Source of the DNA: Tistrella mobilis
GTDB lineage: Bacteria > Pseudomonadota > Alphaproteobacteria > Tistrellales > Tistrellaceae
Direction: 5' to 3'
NCBI RefSeq assembly: GCF_039634785.1
Contig: NZ_JBBIAB010000009.1
Location: 1-64,000 of the forward strand
DNA length: 64,000 bases
Part shown: positions 31,802 through 53,490 of the stretch, one piece after another
Layout: every line of letters begins with the position of its first letter
Numbering within the stretch: position 1 is the first letter of the stretch
Notes under the pieces: model-generated
What the model was told of the DNA's origin: nothing
Database searches by the model: none
The model's input: only the letters and a program-made list of their open reading frames with translations
Program-made: the position numbers and the translations under genes

Positions 31802-33499
31802 ATGTCGCTCTCGTTGCCGCGCGTCAGGAACGCGACCATCGCCCTCAGGCTTGCCGTGATGGTCGGGCTGTCCGCCATCGGCCTTCTGGCGCTTGCGATG
31901 ATCGGCGCCTTCGACCAGCGCGCCCAGATGCTGGAAGATCGCGAGCGGCTTGTCCGCTCGTCGGTCGATGCGGCGGCGGCCATCGTGGTGGCCGAAGTGA
32001 AGCGCGCCACCCCCGCCACCGTCGATCAGGCCAAGGCCGCGGCGCTGCGGGCGCTCGCGGCGATGCGCTTTAATGACGGTGAATATGTCTGGGTCAACGA
32101 CCTGGATTACCGGATGGTGATGCATCCGATCCAGCCGCGGCTGAACGGCCAGGATATGAGCGATTTCAAGGACCCCACCGGCGATCTGATCTTTCACAAG
32201 ATGGTCGATGCGGCCACCGGGCCGGCGAAGTCGGGACTTTTGACCTATCACTGGCCGCGCCCGGGCGGGACCGAGCCGGTGGAGAAGCTGTCCTATGTGA
32301 AGCTGGTGCCGGAATGGGGCTGGGTCATCGGCTCGGGCGTCTATATCGACGACCTGAATGCCGAACTTGAAGCGGCGATGCTGCGCAATGCCCTCTGGGC
32401 CGGCGGGCTGGCCCTGGTTCTGATCGGGCTTGCCACTCTCAACGCCCGTGGTCTGTCGCGTGAACTGCGTAGCCTGACCGACGGTATGCGCCGGCTCGCC
32501 GACGGCGATGTGACGGTCAGGATCAGCGGTACCGACCGCAGGAATGAACTGGGCGAGATGGCGCGCGCGCTGGAGGTTTTCCGCGACAATGCTCGTGAGC
32601 GCCAGCGCCTGCAGGCGGAACATGATGCCGATCAGGCCGCCCGCAATGCCCGTGCCGCCCGGATCGAGGCGCTGGTGCGCGATTTCGATCTGGAGATCGC
32701 CGAACTGGTCGATCAGGTCGCCGGGGCCGCCAACGAGCTTGAATCGACCGCGGTCGAAATGACCCGCATCGCCGAACAGACCAATGCCCATGCCGGTTCG
32801 GCCTCGGCTGCGACCGAACAGACCTCGACCAATGTCCAGACTGTGGCGGCCGCGACCGACGAACTCACCAGCTCGATCCGCGAGATCGGCCGGCAGGTGA
32901 CCGAAAGTGCGCGCATCACCGCCCTGGCGGTGCGCGAGGCCGATGCCACCGCCTCTACCGTCCACGGCCTGGCTGATGCGGCGGACCGGATCGGCCGGGT
33001 GGTGGATCTGATCAACGGCATCGCCGCCCAGACCAACATGCTGGCACTGAATGCGACGATCGAGGCGGCACGTGCCGGCGATGCCGGCAAGGGCTTCGCC
33101 GTGGTTGCGGCCGAGGTCAAGAACCTCGCCCGCCAGACCAGCCAGGCGACCGAAGAAATCGCCGCCCAGATCCGCGCCGTTCAGGCCGAGACCGATGCGG
33201 CGGTGGATGCCATCGGCGGTATCGGCCGTCGGGTGTCGGAAGTCGATGCCATTGCGACCACCATCGCCTCGGCGGTGGAGCAGCAGGCAGCCGCCGCGAC
33301 CGAGATCGCCCGCAGCATTTCCGAGGCGGCCAACGGCACCCGCGATGTGGCGGAAACCGTGGTCAAGGTCTCGGCCGAAGCCAGCCGCACCGGTGCCGCC
33401 GGCCGCCAGGTGCTCACCGCCGGTGGCAGCCTGGCCCAGCGTGCCGACGTGCTGCGCGGCGACGTTACCCGCTTCATCGAAGAGGTGAAGGTGGCCTGA
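31802..33499 (+). CDS. Methyl-accepting chemotaxis protein with single-Cache sensor
   Basis: A 565-residue chemoreceptor. A transmembrane helix at about 15-35 is followed by a periplasmic sCache-type domain ([19 protein letters not shown] near 90-110; [13 protein letters not shown] near 172-185), a second transmembrane helix near 195-215, HAMP, and a cytoplasmic signalling domain whose hairpin tip is [18 protein letters not shown] near 410-428. It sends a signal to CheA/CheW, not present in this window. The ligand is probably a small organic acid given the Cache type, but this is a family-level guess. Confidence 0.92.
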
Positions 33500-39089: not shown

Positions 39090-40790
39090 TCAGGCCCTGA
39101 TGCCGGCCAGGAAGCGGTCGAGCTGGGTCTGCAGGGCGCCTGCCTGACGCGACAGCTCTTCCGATGCGCCGAGCAGCTGGGCGGCGGCGCTGCCGGTGCG
39201 CGAGGCCGCTTCGCCGACGCCCGCGATCGCCTCGCTGACCTCGCCGGTCCCGCGCGAGGCCTGATCGACATTGCGGCCGATTTCGCCGATGGCCGCATTC
39301 TGTTCCTCGACCGCGGCGGCGATGGTGGCGGCGATGCCGTCGACCTCGCGGATCGCCGCGGCGATCCCCTGAATGGCGCCGACGGCGTCGCGGGTGACCG
39401 CCTGGATGTCGGTGATCTGGGCGGCGATGTCGCCGGTGGCGGTCGCCGTCTGGGTGGCGAGCGATTTCACCTCGTTCGCGACCACGGCGAAGCCGCGGCC
39501 GGCATCGCCGGCGCGGGCCGCCTCGATGGTGGCGTTCAGCGCCAGCAGATTGGTCTGTTCCGCGATGTCGGAGATCAGCTTCACCACATTGCCGATCCGC
39601 TCGGCTTTCTCCCGCAGGCCCTGGACCACGGCATTGGTGCCCTCGGCCTGGTCCGCGGCCGTGCGGGCCTTGGCGGCACTTTCCTCGATTCGCCGGCCGA
39701 TCTCGTTGCTCGATGCCGAAAGCTGGCCGGTGGCGGCGGCGACGGTCTGAACATTGGTCGAGGCGGATTCGGCCGAACGCAGCACCTGATGTGCCCGGCG
39801 TTCGGTGTCTTCGGCGGTGCCCGAAAGGGCGCGGGCCGAGCTGCGGAGCTGGTCCGCCGAGCCCGAGAGCCCCGTCACCACGCCCTGCACCTGGCTTTCG
39901 AAGCTCTGGGCGAGGCTTGCCATCTCGGCCTTCTTGCGCGCCTGGGCGTCGCGCTCGGCGGATTCCTGCCGGGCCCGGAAGTCGGCCGCCTCGATCGCAT
40001 TGGCCTTGAAGACCGCGACCGCGCCGGCGATGTCGCCGATCTCGTCGCGGCTGGCGACCTTCGGCACCTCGACCGTCAGGTCGCCGCGGGCGAGGGTGAG
40101 CATCACCCCGGTCAGCCGGCGCAACGGCCTGAGCGCCGCCACCGACCAGAGGCCGAAGAGCAGGCCCACCGCCAGCGCCACCGCACAGGCGATGATCATC
40201 AGCTCGCGGAAGCCGCTCGCCTTGGCCGCCGCAATGGCGCCAGCTTCCTGGTTCTTGACCTCCTGCAGGTCGATGAAGGCGTTGATCGCCGCCAGCCATT
40301 CGGTGAAGGCAGGGCGCGCACCGCTGATCAGCAGCTGCGTCGCCCCGGCGCTGTCGCCGGCGTCGCTCAGCCGGATGATCTGTGCCGCCATGGGCATCGT
40401 CCGTGCCTCTATTGCCTTGATCCGGTCGAGCCGGGTGCGGTCTTCCGCCGTCATCTCCGCGCCGGCGGCGATCATGCCGTCCAGGGCGCGGGCCGCATCG
40501 GCATAGAAGCCTTCCAGCCGGCGGATGTCGGCCACGACCTTGCGCCGTTCGGCGGCATCCTGGATCAGGACCAGATCGCGCAGGGCGATTGCGCGGTCAT
40601 GGACGCTGCCCCGAAAATTGATGGCGTGGCGCTGCTTGACCGAATTGACGGTGTTGATTCGGGTGAGGGTATCGTCGATCGTATCGACCTGAGAGATACC
40701 CACGGCCGTAAGCGCCGCCAGCATCATGAGCAGGACGGCGAAGCCCAGGATCTGCCTGACGCGCAGGCTGGTAGCGGTAAGGAACTGCAT
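39090..40790 (-). CDS. Methyl-accepting chemotaxis protein with four-helix-bundle sensor
   Basis: A 566-residue chemoreceptor. A first transmembrane helix at about 12-32 ([18 protein letters not shown]) is followed by a ~155-residue helical periplasmic domain of 4HB_MCP type, a second transmembrane helix at about 195-220, HAMP, and the cytoplasmic signalling hairpin with [18 protein letters not shown] near 410. It differs from the other two receptors in this window in the sensor domain only. The ligand is unknown. Confidence 0.92.
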
Positions 40791-48903: not shown

Positions 48904-50988
48904 ATGGCCGGACGCGGCATCTTCAGATCCCTGCGCCTGCGCATCCTGGTGCTGGGCGGCGGTATCCTGATCGTCGGCTTCGGGCTGGCGACCGCCTATG
49001 TGCTGCACACCCAGGAAGAGGCGGCCAGGCTTGCGGCCGACCGGATTCTGGCGGAAACCGCAGCCGGCCAGGCGGCGGTGGTGGCCGAAGAGATCGGACG
49101 CGCGGTTGCGCTGGCCGAGACCATGGCGGCCGGGCAGACCGGTATGCTCGCGGCCGGCACCACCGATCGTGCGGTCCTGGCGGCGGCACTGCACGGGGTG
49201 ATCGCGGCCGAAGCGGGGGTGGTCGGCGGCGGCCTGGGCTGGCAGCCCGGCCTGCCCGACGGCCGGGATGCCGATTTCCGCAACACCGGGCTCGGCGATG
49301 CCGACGGCCGGTTCGTGCCCTACATGTCGCGCACCGCCGATGGCGGCGTGGTGACCGAGCCGCTGATCATGGATGCGGCGGCCGATGCCTGGTATGGGGC
49401 GCCGATGCGCGCCGGCCGCAGCCTGGTGACCGAACCCTATCTCTACCCCGTCGCCGGCCGGGACGTGCTGATGACCACGGCTGCCGCCCCGATCCTGCGG
49501 GCGGGCAAGCCGGTGGGTGTCGCCACCGTCGATCTGGGCCTCGACGACCTCCAGCACCGGATCGGATCGGCCCGCCCCTTCGGCAGCGGCCAGGTGGCGG
49601 TGTTGTCCGCCGACGGGCTCTGGGTGGTGCATCCCGATGACGCGCGGCGCGGCAGGCCGGCGACGGCCCCGGCGATCGCCGGCATCCTGAAGGCCGCGGC
49701 CCGCGGCCCCGTGGAGCAGGCGGCCGACGGTGCGGATGTGGCCGGCCCCGCCGGGCCGGTCCTGGTTCGGGCGCTGCCGGTGGATCTGGGCCATGGCGCC
49801 GCGAAATGGACGGTGCTGGTCACGGTGCCCGAAGCGGCCGTGTTCGCCGAAGCCCGCGCCGTCGAGCGGCGGCTGTCGATCGGGCTGGTGGTGATCGCCC
49901 TCGGCGCCGGCATGGCCCTGTTCTGGATGGGCCATGCCATCGCCGCACCGATCCGCCGGCTGACCGGCACCATGCATCAGCTGGCCGAGGGCGATCGTGC
50001 GGTCGAGGTACCGGCAACCGCCCGGGCCGACGAGATCGGCGCTATGGCCCGCACCGTGGTCGTGTTCCGCGACGGTCTGGCCCGGGCCGACCAACTGGCC
50101 CACGAAGCCGAACGCCGGCGCGAGGCCCATGAGGCGGAGCTTGCAGCCGAGCGACGGCGCATCGCCGATGCCTTCGAGCAGGAGGCCGGGCGGATGCTGC
50201 AGGAGCTGATCGCGGCGGCGGCACGGATGCGCGACACCTCGGCCGAGATGGGCCAGATGTCGGCGACCTCGATCGATGGCGCGCGGGCGGTGGATACCGA
50301 ATCCCGGGCCGCCGCCGCCAATGTCCAGACCGTCTCTGCCGCGGCGGAAGAATTGTCGGCCTCGATCGGCGAGATCGGCTCTCAGGTCGGCCGTGCCCGC
50401 GGTGCCGCGGATCGGGCGGTCGAAGAGGCGGGCAGCGCCGACAGCCAGGCGAAGCGGCTGGCCGAAACCGGGCGGGTGATCGGCCAGGTGGTGTCGCTGA
50501 TCGGCGACATCGCCGGCCAGACCAATCTTCTGGCCCTGAACGCCACCATCGAGGCGGCGCGGGCCGGCGAGGCCGGCAAGGGCTTCGCGGTGGTGGCGGC
50601 CGAGGTGAAGGCGCTGGCCGACCAGACCGCGCGGGCGACCGCCGACATCTCGGGTCGCCTGGGAGAGATCCAGGGCGCTGCCGCCGATATGGGCACCGCG
50701 ATCGACCGGGTGACGGTCAGCATCCGCGAGATGCACGAGATCGCGCTGACGATCGCCTCGGCGATCGACGAGCAGGGGGCCGCCACTGCGGAAATCGCCC
50801 GCAATGTTCAGGAAGCGGCCACCGCCACCGATCGGGTGTCGGTGCGCGCGGCCGAGGTGGGGCAGGCCTCGGACCGGACCGGAGAGGCCGCCGATGCGGT
50901 GCTGGCCGGCACCGAGGAGCTGACGGCCACCATCACCCGGCTCGACCAGGTGGTGCGCGAGATCCTGGCGCGGATCCGCGCCGGCTGA
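48904..50988 (+). CDS. Methyl-accepting chemotaxis protein with double-Cache sensor
   Basis: A 694-residue chemoreceptor starting after GGAGGGCGAC. Transmembrane helix 1 spans about 12-34. The periplasmic region (~35-310) has dCache features, e.g. [16 protein letters not shown] near 134-149, [19 protein letters not shown] near 160-178 and [17 protein letters not shown] near 201-217. Helix 2 is at about 318-345, then HAMP, and the signalling tip with [23 protein letters not shown] near 539-560. It is the third receptor in this window with a third sensor type. Confidence 0.93.
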
Positions 50989-51083
50989 TCGGCAACCCCC
51001 GGCAGATCGTTCTTGACGGGAAGGTGCGCCATCGCGCAGGCTTCCCCGCATCGGTTCATCACGCGCAGGAGAGGAGGGCAGTC

Positions 51084-51242
51084 ATGATCGTCGGCATCTG
51101 CACGCATGCCCGCCGCTCCCCGGCCGCCCGTGGCCGCTGCCTGGTATCGGTATCGATTGCGCGAATTTCCCGCCCGGTCTCTGCGGAGGCCGGGACCGGC
51201 GTCGTCATAGGGCGCCGGAGCGACGATACAGGCACCGCCTGA
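51084..51242 (+). CDS. 52-residue leader ORF before the IleRS-tail gene
   Basis: MIVGICTHARRSPAARGR is the start of a 52-residue Arg-rich ORF with an excellent ribosome binding site (GGAGAGGAGGG, 7 bases before ATG 51084). It has no recognisable domain. Its stop at 51242 is 15 bases before the first stem of a competing RNA structure that can mask the ribosome binding site of the next gene (51304-51310). This arrangement fits a translated leader peptide. TTGACG at 51013-51018 is a possible -35 with no good -10. Confidence 0.5.
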   Translation: MIVGICTHARRSPAARGRCLVSVSIARISRPVSAEAGTGVVIGRRSDDTGTA

Positions 51243-51256
51243 CCGTTCGGAGACGA

Positions 51257-51312
51257 GGTCCCGGTTTCAAACCGGAGGGACCGCCCGGCGGGGCGGTACG
51301 ACCGACGGGACC
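51257..51312 (+). promoter_or_regulatory. Competing hairpins able to sequester a ribosome binding site
   Basis: GGTCC-CGGT (51257-51265) pairs with ACCG (51271-51274) and GGACC (51278-51282). Next, CCGCCC (51281-51286) pairs with GGGCGG (51291-51296), which overlaps the first stem by two bases. Alternatively GGTCCC (51257-51262) can pair with GGGACC (51307-51312), which covers the GACGGGA ribosome binding site of the following gene. The structure is visible by eye; switching is inference. Confidence 0.45.
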
Positions 51313-51317
51313 CGATC

Positions 51318-52481
51318 ATGACCGAGCTGCTTCTTCAGGCCACCGCCGCGCCCTTCTCTGCCGACCTCACGGCCGGCGATCCGATTTTTTCTCCCGAAGC
51401 TGATCCCGCACGCGAAGCCCGGCTCGTCGATGCCTGGGCGGAGATGCGTCTGGACCGCCGGGCCCGCAGCGCCTGCGCCGGGCGCCCGCGTGCGGCCCTT
51501 CCCGAGATGTCCGAGCTTCTGCCGGCGGGGGCTGGCGTGGTCGAGGCGGCGCTCTGCCGGGACATGCTGGCGCGGGCCCGGCGCATGGCCGGCTTCGACA
51601 CCCCGCCGCCGGCCGGGGCGGCGCATGCGGCCGGACGGCGCCTTGGCCTGCTGGCGGATGCCGATGCCGCGGCGGGTGATGCCGGTGCCGACTGGCGGCG
51701 CTGGGCCGCGCGTGCGGACCAGGACGGCGCGGATCTGCTCCGTGCACGATTTGCAGCCGGTGACACTGTCGATGCGTCCGGGGCGGTCTGCGGCATCCGC
51801 GCGGCCCTGGGGCGCTTGCTCGATCATCTGGCGGTGGCACCGGCCGGGCTGCTGCCGCCGGCCGACCGGCTCGACATGCCCGAGATCCTGCTGCTCGCCC
51901 GGCTGGTCGAAATCGATGCCGAGTTGCGCGACGATCTGGAGGCGGCCGATCTGCCGGCGATGCTGGCCCGGCTGGCCCGATTCTGCGCCGACGAGCTGAC
52001 CGCCGGCTGGGCCGGTCTGCGGGCCGGTCTGCTGGCGGGGGATGCAGATGCCCCCGGGCGGCGGGCGGTTGCGGCGGTCGCGGCGCGCAGCTTCAACCAT
52101 CTGGTCGCCTGGATCGCGCCGCTTCTGCCCTTCATGGCCGAAGAGGCCTGGCTGGCGCGCTGGGGTGCCGGTGCCGGCAGTGTTCATGAACGTCTGTGGC
52201 CGTCGGTGGATCCGCTCTGGGCGACGCCGGGAACCATCCTCGCCAACCGGCGCCTGGACCGGCTGCGGGCCCTGGTGCGCGATGTGGCGGGCGGGCGCGA
52301 GATCACGGCGGATGCCACCGTCGAGCTGGATCTGCCCGCCGACCGGCGGCCGCCATTCCGTGAGGCCGAGCTTGGCCCCCTGCTGGGGGTTGGCCGGTTG
52401 CGTCTGCGCAGCCTGCCCGCCGGTGCAGCACCCGCAGCCCGGTTCGCCGCTGCTGGACCGGTGCTTGCCGCCACGGCATGA
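51318..52481 (+). CDS. Orphan IleRS post-catalytic/anticodon-binding-domain protein
   Basis: A 387-residue protein that looks like the tail of isoleucyl-tRNA synthetase without its catalytic core. GADLLRARFAAGD near 139-151 matches the GADxLRLW segment that follows the KMSKS loop; LARLARFCADELTAGW resembles the Fxx..FCxxDLSxxY segment; FNHLVAWIAPLLPFMAEEAW is the anticodon-binding-domain signature. No HIGH or KMSKS motif is present anywhere. Paralogous synthetase fragments sometimes act as tRNA-binding regulators or deacylases. The function is unknown. It is 7 bases upstream of a LysR gene, and sits behind a leader ORF and RNA structure. A degraded synthetase is an alternative, but the intact 388 codons and good ribosome binding site argue against. 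Confidence 0.6.
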   Translation: MTELLLQATAAPFSADLTAGDPIFSPEADPAREARLVDAWAEMRLDRRARSACAGRPRAALPEMSELLPAGAGVVEAALCRDMLARARRMAGFDTPPPAGAAHAAGRRLGLLADADAAAGDAGADWRRWAARADQDGADLLRARFAAGDTVDASGAVCGIRAALGRLLDHLAVAPAGLLPPADRLDMPEILLLARLVEIDAELRDDLEAADLPAMLARLARFCADELTAGWAGLRAGLLAGDADAPGRRAVAAVAARSFNHLVAWIAPLLPFMAEEAWLARWGAGAGSVHERLWPSVDPLWATPGTILANRRLDRLRALVRDVAGGREITADATVELDLPADRRPPFREAELGPLLGVGRLRLRSLPAGAAPAARFAAAGPVLAATA

Positions 52482-52488
52482 TCGGGGC

Positions 52489-53490
52489 ATGGCTGATGCT
52501 CCGCTCCGCGATCCCAATCCCGAACCGGGGGGCGCCCATGCCGATCCGGCGCTTCGGCCCGAGATCGCGCGGGCGCGCACCATTGCGCGCCTGCCGCTGA
52601 ACGCGATCCGGGCCTTTACCGCCGCGGCGCGGCTGGGTGGCATGGCGGCGGCGGCAGGAGAGCTTGGCCTCACCCCCGGGGCGGTCAGCCAGCAGGTGAA
52701 GACGCTGGAAGACCGGCTGGGGCTGAAGCTGTTCGAACGCGAAGCCCGCGGGGTCCGCCTGACCGCCGTCGGTGCCGACCTTGCCGATGCCGCCCATCAG
52801 GCGCTGGACGGGATGGCCCATGCCTATGAACGGGCGCTGGCCCGCACGGCGCCCGGCATCCTGACCGTCGGCGTGGCACCGAGTTTTGCAAGCCTCTGGC
52901 TGGCCCCCCGCATCGGCGGGTTCCTGAAGGCGCAGCCCGATCTGGCCGTGCGCCTCGACAGCCAGCGTCATCATGTCGACCTCGCCCGCGGCGAGGCCGA
53001 TATCGCCCTGCGCTGGGGGCGTGGGGACTGGCGCGGTCTGGTGGTGCTGCCGCTCGGTCCCGAACCCCTCACCCCGGTGGCGGCGCCTGCTTTGGCCGCT
53101 GCGCTGCGCACCCGCACCGATTTTGCGCCCGCCTGCCTGCTGGATCAGGTGCGGCTGCACTTCGCCGAACTCGATGATTGGGGCTGCTGGTTCCGGGTGG
53201 CGGGGGTGGCGATGCCGGAGGTGATCGCCGCCGGGCCGGGTGGACCGGTCTTCAGCGAATCGACCGCGGTGATCGAGGCGGCGGAGGCCGGCCAGGGCAT
53301 CGCCATCGGCCGGCCGTCGCTGACCGCCGATGCGATCGCAGCCGGCAGGCTGGTGCAGCTTTTCCCCGACATCCGTGCCGATGACGGCTGGGGCTATTAC
53401 CTGGTTGCGACCGAGGTGGGGCTGCGCCGGCCGGCGGTGGCGGCTTTTCGCGACTGGCTGATGGCGGAAATTGCGAAGATGCCGCGTTGA
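52489..53490 (+). CDS. LysR-family regulator (GcvA-like)
   Basis: A 333-residue LysR protein. The HTH is AARLGGMAAAAGELGLTPGAVSQQVKTLEDRLG at about 46-78, followed by LFEREARGVRLTAVG. The effector domain spans about 120-330 (DLARGEADIALRWGRGDW; FSESTAVIEAAEAGQGIAIGR). The GcvA-type group regulates amino-acid or antibiotic genes, often divergently; here it follows the IleRS-tail gene at 7 bases, so is probably co-transcribed. An N-terminal extension of ~35 residues precedes the HTH. Confidence 0.88.
   Translation: MADAPLRDPNPEPGGAHADPALRPEIARARTIARLPLNAIRAFTAAARLGGMAAAAGELGLTPGAVSQQVKTLEDRLGLKLFEREARGVRLTAVGADLADAAHQALDGMAHAYERALARTAPGILTVGVAPSFASLWLAPRIGGFLKAQPDLAVRLDSQRHHVDLARGEADIALRWGRGDWRGLVVLPLGPEPLTPVAAPALAAALRTRTDFAPACLLDQVRLHFAELDDWGCWFRVAGVAMPEVIAAGPGGPVFSESTAVIEAAEAGQGIAIGRPSLTADAIAAGRLVQLFPDIRADDGWGYYLVATEVGLRRPAVAAFRDWLMAEIAKMPR

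Follow-up and report, generated by a model that had tools for sequence, protein, structure and literature searches.

A 387-residue protein encoded in Tistrella mobilis is derived from isoleucyl-tRNA synthetase (IleRS); it has lost the ATP-site signatures, the editing domain and the zinc module, and has kept the anticodon-binding helix bundle together with a remnant of the N-terminus. The gene (hereafter the orphan) is kept by purifying selection and is not a pseudogene, and its 5' leader is constrained at the nucleotide level, not at the protein level. The reading that we prefer, at a probability of roughly 0.4, is that of a genus-specific, catalytically dead paralogue of IleRS that acts as a binding protein, is encoded in an operon with a LysR-family regulator and stands behind a cis-acting leader. 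The features of the locus are listed in Table 1; all positions are those of the window, i.e., the whole 64-kb stretch of DNA that was analysed.

Table 1. Features of the orphan locus, in window coordinates
Feature	Position	Strand	Evidence or remark
Chemotaxis receptor gene	48904-50988		Directly upstream of the leader
Upstream part of the conserved leader, from the receptor gene to the leader ORF	51010-51083	+	Includes the Shine-Dalgarno (SD) sequence AGGAGG (51072-51077); few differences to the other Tistrella species
Leader ORF, 52 codons; translation uncertain	51084-51242	+	TGA at 51240-51242; SD-ATG conserved in 3 genomes
Predicted multibranch RNA domain	51140-51242	+	Closing stem GTATCG 51150-51155 / CGATAC 51224-51229
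Candidate long-range masking helix over the orphan start, with competing hairpin (51257-51282)	51237-51340	+	
Orphan IleRS-derived protein, 387 aa, non-catalytic	51318-52481	+	PF08264, IleRS profile, AlphaFold2/Foldseek, dN/dS
LysR-family regulator, probable operon partner	52489-53490	+	Pfam HTH_1 and LysR_substrate

The Tistrella genome that contains the window has a size of 6.16 Mb. The gene order chemotaxis receptor, leader, orphan CDS, LysR gene is kept across the Tistrella genomes: the same locus is present in T. mobilis KA081020-065 (L039), with an orphan protein identity of 98%, and a second species of the genus (L010/L048) has it too, at an identity of 83%. Full-length orthologues were found in Tistrella only, in three genomes (two of them from one species), where all copies are intact and syntenic; the orphan comparison is made on these three. 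Stand-alone relatives outside Tistrella were not found in 385 genomes of the class, in a peptide-pattern scan of GTDB species or among plasmids. A short IleRS frame in another genome (L053) was considered as a stand-alone copy and rejected, as it is an IleRS truncated at the contig end. Two other segments of the window (32989-33340 and 39268-39597) show approximately 70-81% DNA identity to part of the receptor gene that adjoins the orphan in other Tistrella; both probably encode chemotaxis receptor signalling domains.

The ATG of the LysR gene lies 7 nt past the stop codon of the orphan, a spacing that is the same in all three genomes, and the two genes probably form one operon. The LysR protein is 98% identical in the second Tistrella species. 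The synonymous divergence of its gene between the two Tistrella species is low (dS 0.15, falling to 0.03 in one segment of 50 codons) compared with 0.41-0.42 for the neighbours.

Residues 192-330 of the orphan match the Pfam family Anticodon_1 (PF08264) with 38.5 bits (gathering cut-off 25.1 bits), the sole Pfam family found; the helix bundle as a whole spans residues ~187-330 (~51876-52307). The best NCBIfam model is IleRS, at 27.4 bits far under its cut-off of 621.4, and a profile of alphaproteobacterial IleRS matched the bundle with an E-value of about 5e-26. The best matches in other genomes fall within IleRS frames. The orphan's own genome encodes, away from the orphan, a complete IleRS of 974 residues (C8) with HIGH, KMSKS and the zinc motif CxRCW, as well as ValRS (C5) and LeuRS frames; the IleRS frame matches the orphan with 37% identity over query residues 127-329, whereas the ValRS frame gave no match. 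In a tree with ValRS as outgroup, a phylogeny of the kind that the sequence-only reading had proposed as a check, the orphans group as a single clade, whose branch is very long (about 6.6 substitutions per site) and lies inside the alphaproteobacterial IleRS. For their placement as sister of Tistrella's own IleRS, AU p was 0.325, which lends it no support and does not reject it. The structure prediction, likewise proposed, gave an AlphaFold2 model whose pLDDT averages 63.7 and is about 64-87 in residues 150-320; its top 12 Foldseek matches were all IleRS. By own-genome match, tree and fold, the orphan belongs to the IleRS lineage and not to those of ValRS or LeuRS.

HIGH and KMSKS are absent from all three orphans in the alignment, the CP1 editing domain and the C-terminal zinc module are gapped in the alignment to IleRS, and the orphan stops before CxRCW. 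The sequence-only reading had described the protein as an IleRS tail only. As far as the missing signature motifs and the retained anticodon-binding domain are concerned, that description stands; it has to be amended at the other end, where residues ~30-55 align to the N-terminus of IleRS (EARLVDAWAEMRL versus EPGLLDRWSGQDL) and residues 1-65 align to IleRS from the first methionine. Taken alone the N-terminal match is weak (E 0.005-1.1 when 10,000 sequences are assumed; 5e-5 for the second hhalign hit). As the N-terminus is IleRS-like too, the orphan is better described as an internally collapsed IleRS, more than a tail. The placement of residues ~57-117 is ambiguous, being the HIGH region according to hhalign and the region before KMSKS according to MAFFT, and the pLDDT of the AlphaFold2 model is <50 there.

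Between the two Tistrella species the orphan has a dN of 0.099, a dS of 0.42 and a dN/dS of 0.23, compared with a dN/dS of 0.065 for the receptor gene and 0.055 for the LysR gene, i.e., the constraint on the orphan is weaker than that on the two adjoining genes by a factor of 3-4. This relaxation would be expected of a duplicate of IleRS that is losing its function while the conservation of the locus is carried by the neighbouring regulator, and the 183 IleRS-invariant columns that are gapped in the orphan, the long branch and the restriction to Tistrella point the same way. We nevertheless regard such decay as unlikely: the gene is intact in all three genomes, with lengths equal to within one residue, and dN stays under dS in every interval of the gene, with the smallest values, 0.02-0.08 per 30 codons, across most of the bundle. 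The scattered, pseudogene-like fragments under relaxed selection that would have spoken against a functional gene were thus not encountered, yet the selection is weaker than that on the neighbours.

Within the preferred reading, the orphan would work by binding and not by catalysis, most likely to the anticodon arm of tRNA(Ile) or to IleRS itself, and this binding would modulate the supply of isoleucyl-tRNA. This would be a 'tRNA-linked' role, as suggested by the fold that the orphan has retained. All three orphans have kept 24 of the 47 aligned IleRS-invariant positions within residues 181-330 and 22 of the 67 within residues 1-180. About half of those in the bundle are therefore altered (the FYFD.RKD stretch, e.g., is gone), and with these changes and the missing zinc module the affinity for tRNA may have been lost.

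The leader ORF of the window does not differ from that of the second species at any of 156 positions, and the orphan CDS is identical too over its first ~27 nt, whereas the intercistronic segment (51243-51317) differs at 6 of 75; the yardstick is the dS of the flanking genes, 0.41-0.42. Recombination between the window and the second species could add to the exact identity of the ORF. The comparison of KA081020-065 with the second species still gives only 8 differences in 156, far below the synonymous level, which places the constraint on the nucleotides. Conservation begins upstream of the ORF and ends within the CDS and does not respect the borders of the ORF. This letter-by-letter conservation suggests a control element, and in the preferred reading the leader would be a cis-acting RNA element that sets the translation of the orphan-LysR operon, both proteins being made from one mRNA.

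The sequence-only reading had noted a 52-residue ORF with a strong ribosome binding site, and this observation holds: an AGGAGG lies six bases ahead of the ATG, and the three Tistrella sequences agree in start, SD and stop. Chance alone would give about 3.4 sites of this kind on the two strands of the 64-kb window, or roughly 0.007 per 250-nt leader. Despite the conserved SD-ATG, the ORF has no coding signature and does not look protein-coding. Its codon likelihood is -4.07, compared with -4.07 and -4.08 for the antisense frames and -3.4 to -3.6 for real genes, and 7 of the 8 changes between the window and KA081020-065 fall at codon positions 1-2. No protein family was detected in the leader ORF, in a longer GTG ORF, in the antisense ORF or in the intercistronic frame. 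Five substitutions at 51118-51127, all to T, are confined to KA081020-065; the more distant species agrees with the window.

These properties would also be expected if the leader were an element at the DNA level or a separate RNA, for instance the promoter/operator region that serves the LysR operon, or else a small RNA, with a 52-codon ORF that arose by chance and is not meaningfully translated. A codon likelihood equal to that of the antisense frames, sister-strain changes that spare third positions in all but one case, and a conserved block that starts upstream of the ORF and stops inside the CDS make this a serious possibility. The retention in all three sequences of a well-spaced, perfect SD-ATG, of which so few are expected, speaks against it, as does the result of a search for signals at the leader, in which neither a match to the sigma-70 consensus promoter nor a terminator was found. 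If the cis-acting reading holds, the ORF would act via the passage of the ribosome (coupling), its peptide being unimportant. An AT-richer patch with repeated GTATCG lies inside the GC-rich leader (51144-51167, GTATCGGTATCGATTGCGCGAATT); it could be bound by a protein just as it could form an RNA stem.

The predicted multibranch domain has a stability of z -2.3 relative to shuffles, compared with -2.75 for a stretch of the receptor gene taken as a coding control; its sole substitution (51202) turns a U-G into a C-G and keeps the pair. A covariance model of the leader RNA, run over 190 genomes, recovered the Tistrella copies and three weak hits with E-values of 0.002-0.006 per genome, where about 1.9 hits are expected by chance at E 0.01 over 190 genomes. 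Rfam searches of the leader gave no match up to E=1 and none at the gathering threshold. A T-box, a tRNA mimic and a known Rfam leader were considered as candidates for the leader and rejected.

Two mutually exclusive pairings are predicted around the start of the orphan, in agreement with the sequence-only reading: a local hairpin, in which 51257-51262 pairs with 51277-51282, and a mask, in which 51257-51263 pairs with 51306-51312 and covers the weak SD GGGA. The mask is extended by 51245-51250/51322-51327 and 51237-51242/51335-51340, by which the stop codon of the leader ORF is tied to the start of the CDS. Two changes in the mask leave the pairing intact (U-G to C-G at 51246, G-C to G-U at 51311), no two-sided (compensatory) change was seen in the leader stems of the three Tistrella sequences, and the stability of the element is modest (z -1.7 to -2.5 relative to shuffles). 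The cost of opening the ribosome binding site (-18 to +6, computed in the context -89 to +90 and with 120 shuffles) is 6.9 kcal/mol in the window, compared with 15.1 for the start of IleRS, 17.1 for LysR and 11.4 for the chemotaxis receptor. In the longer context 107 of 120 shuffles mask the site at least as well; in a shorter one (to +30) masking is somewhat above the shuffles, of which 10/120, 8/120 and 1/120 reach it in the three sequences. The masking stem can therefore be retained as a predicted pairing, not as an exceptional one. With a ribosome on successive leader codons the predicted cost is about 7-12 kcal/mol in the window and 6.7-10 in the sister strain; when the leader carries no ribosome, two sequences reach 15.7 and 14.0 kcal/mol and KA081020-065 only 6.8. 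The stems are real as predictions and weak as evidence of a switch. Translational attenuation, as originally proposed, is possible but unsupported, given masking that is not exceptional, a cost that depends little on ribosome position, no covariation and an ORF that is not coding-like.

The leader ORF contains 8 rare codons, where 0.45 are expected. Rare Val/Ile codons (GTA, ATT, ATA) are among its codons. The run GTA, TCG, GTA, TCG, ATT, GCG, CGA and ATT at codons 21-28 holds GTA twice and ATT twice, whereas GTA, ATT and ATA jointly account for 0.2% of the codons in four reference genes. In an attenuator that responds to isoleucine and valine, ribosomes would stall at these codons when charged tRNA is short and the downstream fold would change, for which the descent of the downstream protein from IleRS would be fitting. 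These GTA codons, however, together with a portion of the first ATT, belong to the 5' arm of a predicted stem in the RNA that alone could explain them, which leaves this mechanism a minor and rather unlikely rival; the cost of opening the ribosome binding site varies little with the position of the ribosome, and a terminator is lacking. More speculative still is a protein-based proteobacterial counterpart of the T-box, in which a free-standing relic of IleRS that binds the anticodon arm would sense uncharged tRNA(Ile), bind its own leader or the tRNA and set its own translation and that of LysR; we consider this improbable.

The leader ORF and the orphan CDS share one frame, and the TGA at 51240 is the sole stop between them. 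Readthrough of this UGA would fuse both into a protein of ~465 residues, and the frame is indeed open over 51243-51317 (open frame of 412 aa). A shared frame has a one-in-three chance, however, the homology to IleRS starts at the ATG at 51318 and the leader is not coding-like, so that readthrough is highly improbable. Its selenocysteine form was rejected: no SelB was found above the cut-off in the orphan's own genome, and homology runs from 51318.

Translational attenuators of the erm/cat type and the leader peptides of ilv and trp operons consist of a short ORF with an SD, followed by alternative stems at the regulated start. The orphan leader resembles them in its short ORF with an SD and in its alternative stems at the start, and differs in lacking a demonstrated stall site, a coding signature, masking above chance and a terminator. 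As a highly conserved element, it is a direct place to test for regulation of the orphan.

In the sequence of its bundle, in its predicted fold and in its N-terminal remnant, the orphan is like bacterial IleRS1 (PDB 1QU2/1FFY, 8C9E/8C9F), from which it differs by the absence of HIGH, KMSKS, the CP1 editing domain and the C-terminal zinc module and by its length (387 versus ~938 aa). No paper on a free-standing paralogue of the IleRS anticodon-binding domain was found in searches of an open-access library, which misses most subscription papers. Synthetase duplicates with new jobs are common. Proteins resembling aminoacyl-tRNA synthetases with inactive, lost or added domains form a class (PMC9437257). 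For IleRS, a review of such duplicates names only IleRS2, the mupirocin-resistant synthetase, and SbzA, the homologue in altemicidin biosynthesis that transfers Ile from Ile-tRNA (PMC9437257). The IleRS-derived duplicates described so far act on isoleucine or Ile-tRNA. Like these two, the orphan would be an IleRS duplicate with a second role, but it is without the ATP-site signatures of the catalytic domain. With HisZ, PoxA and YadB it shares the state of a diverged synthetase paralogue beside an intact synthetase (PMC9437257), and the intact IleRS in the same organism allows a comparison with the orphan. YadB is a catalytic domain without an anticodon-binding domain (PMC9437257), whereas the orphan keeps the opposite part, the anticodon-binding bundle. 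As a selected, genus-fixed paralogue that has discarded catalysis and kept the bundle for tRNA recognition, it would exemplify cleanly the conversion of a tRNA-binding module into a possible regulator.
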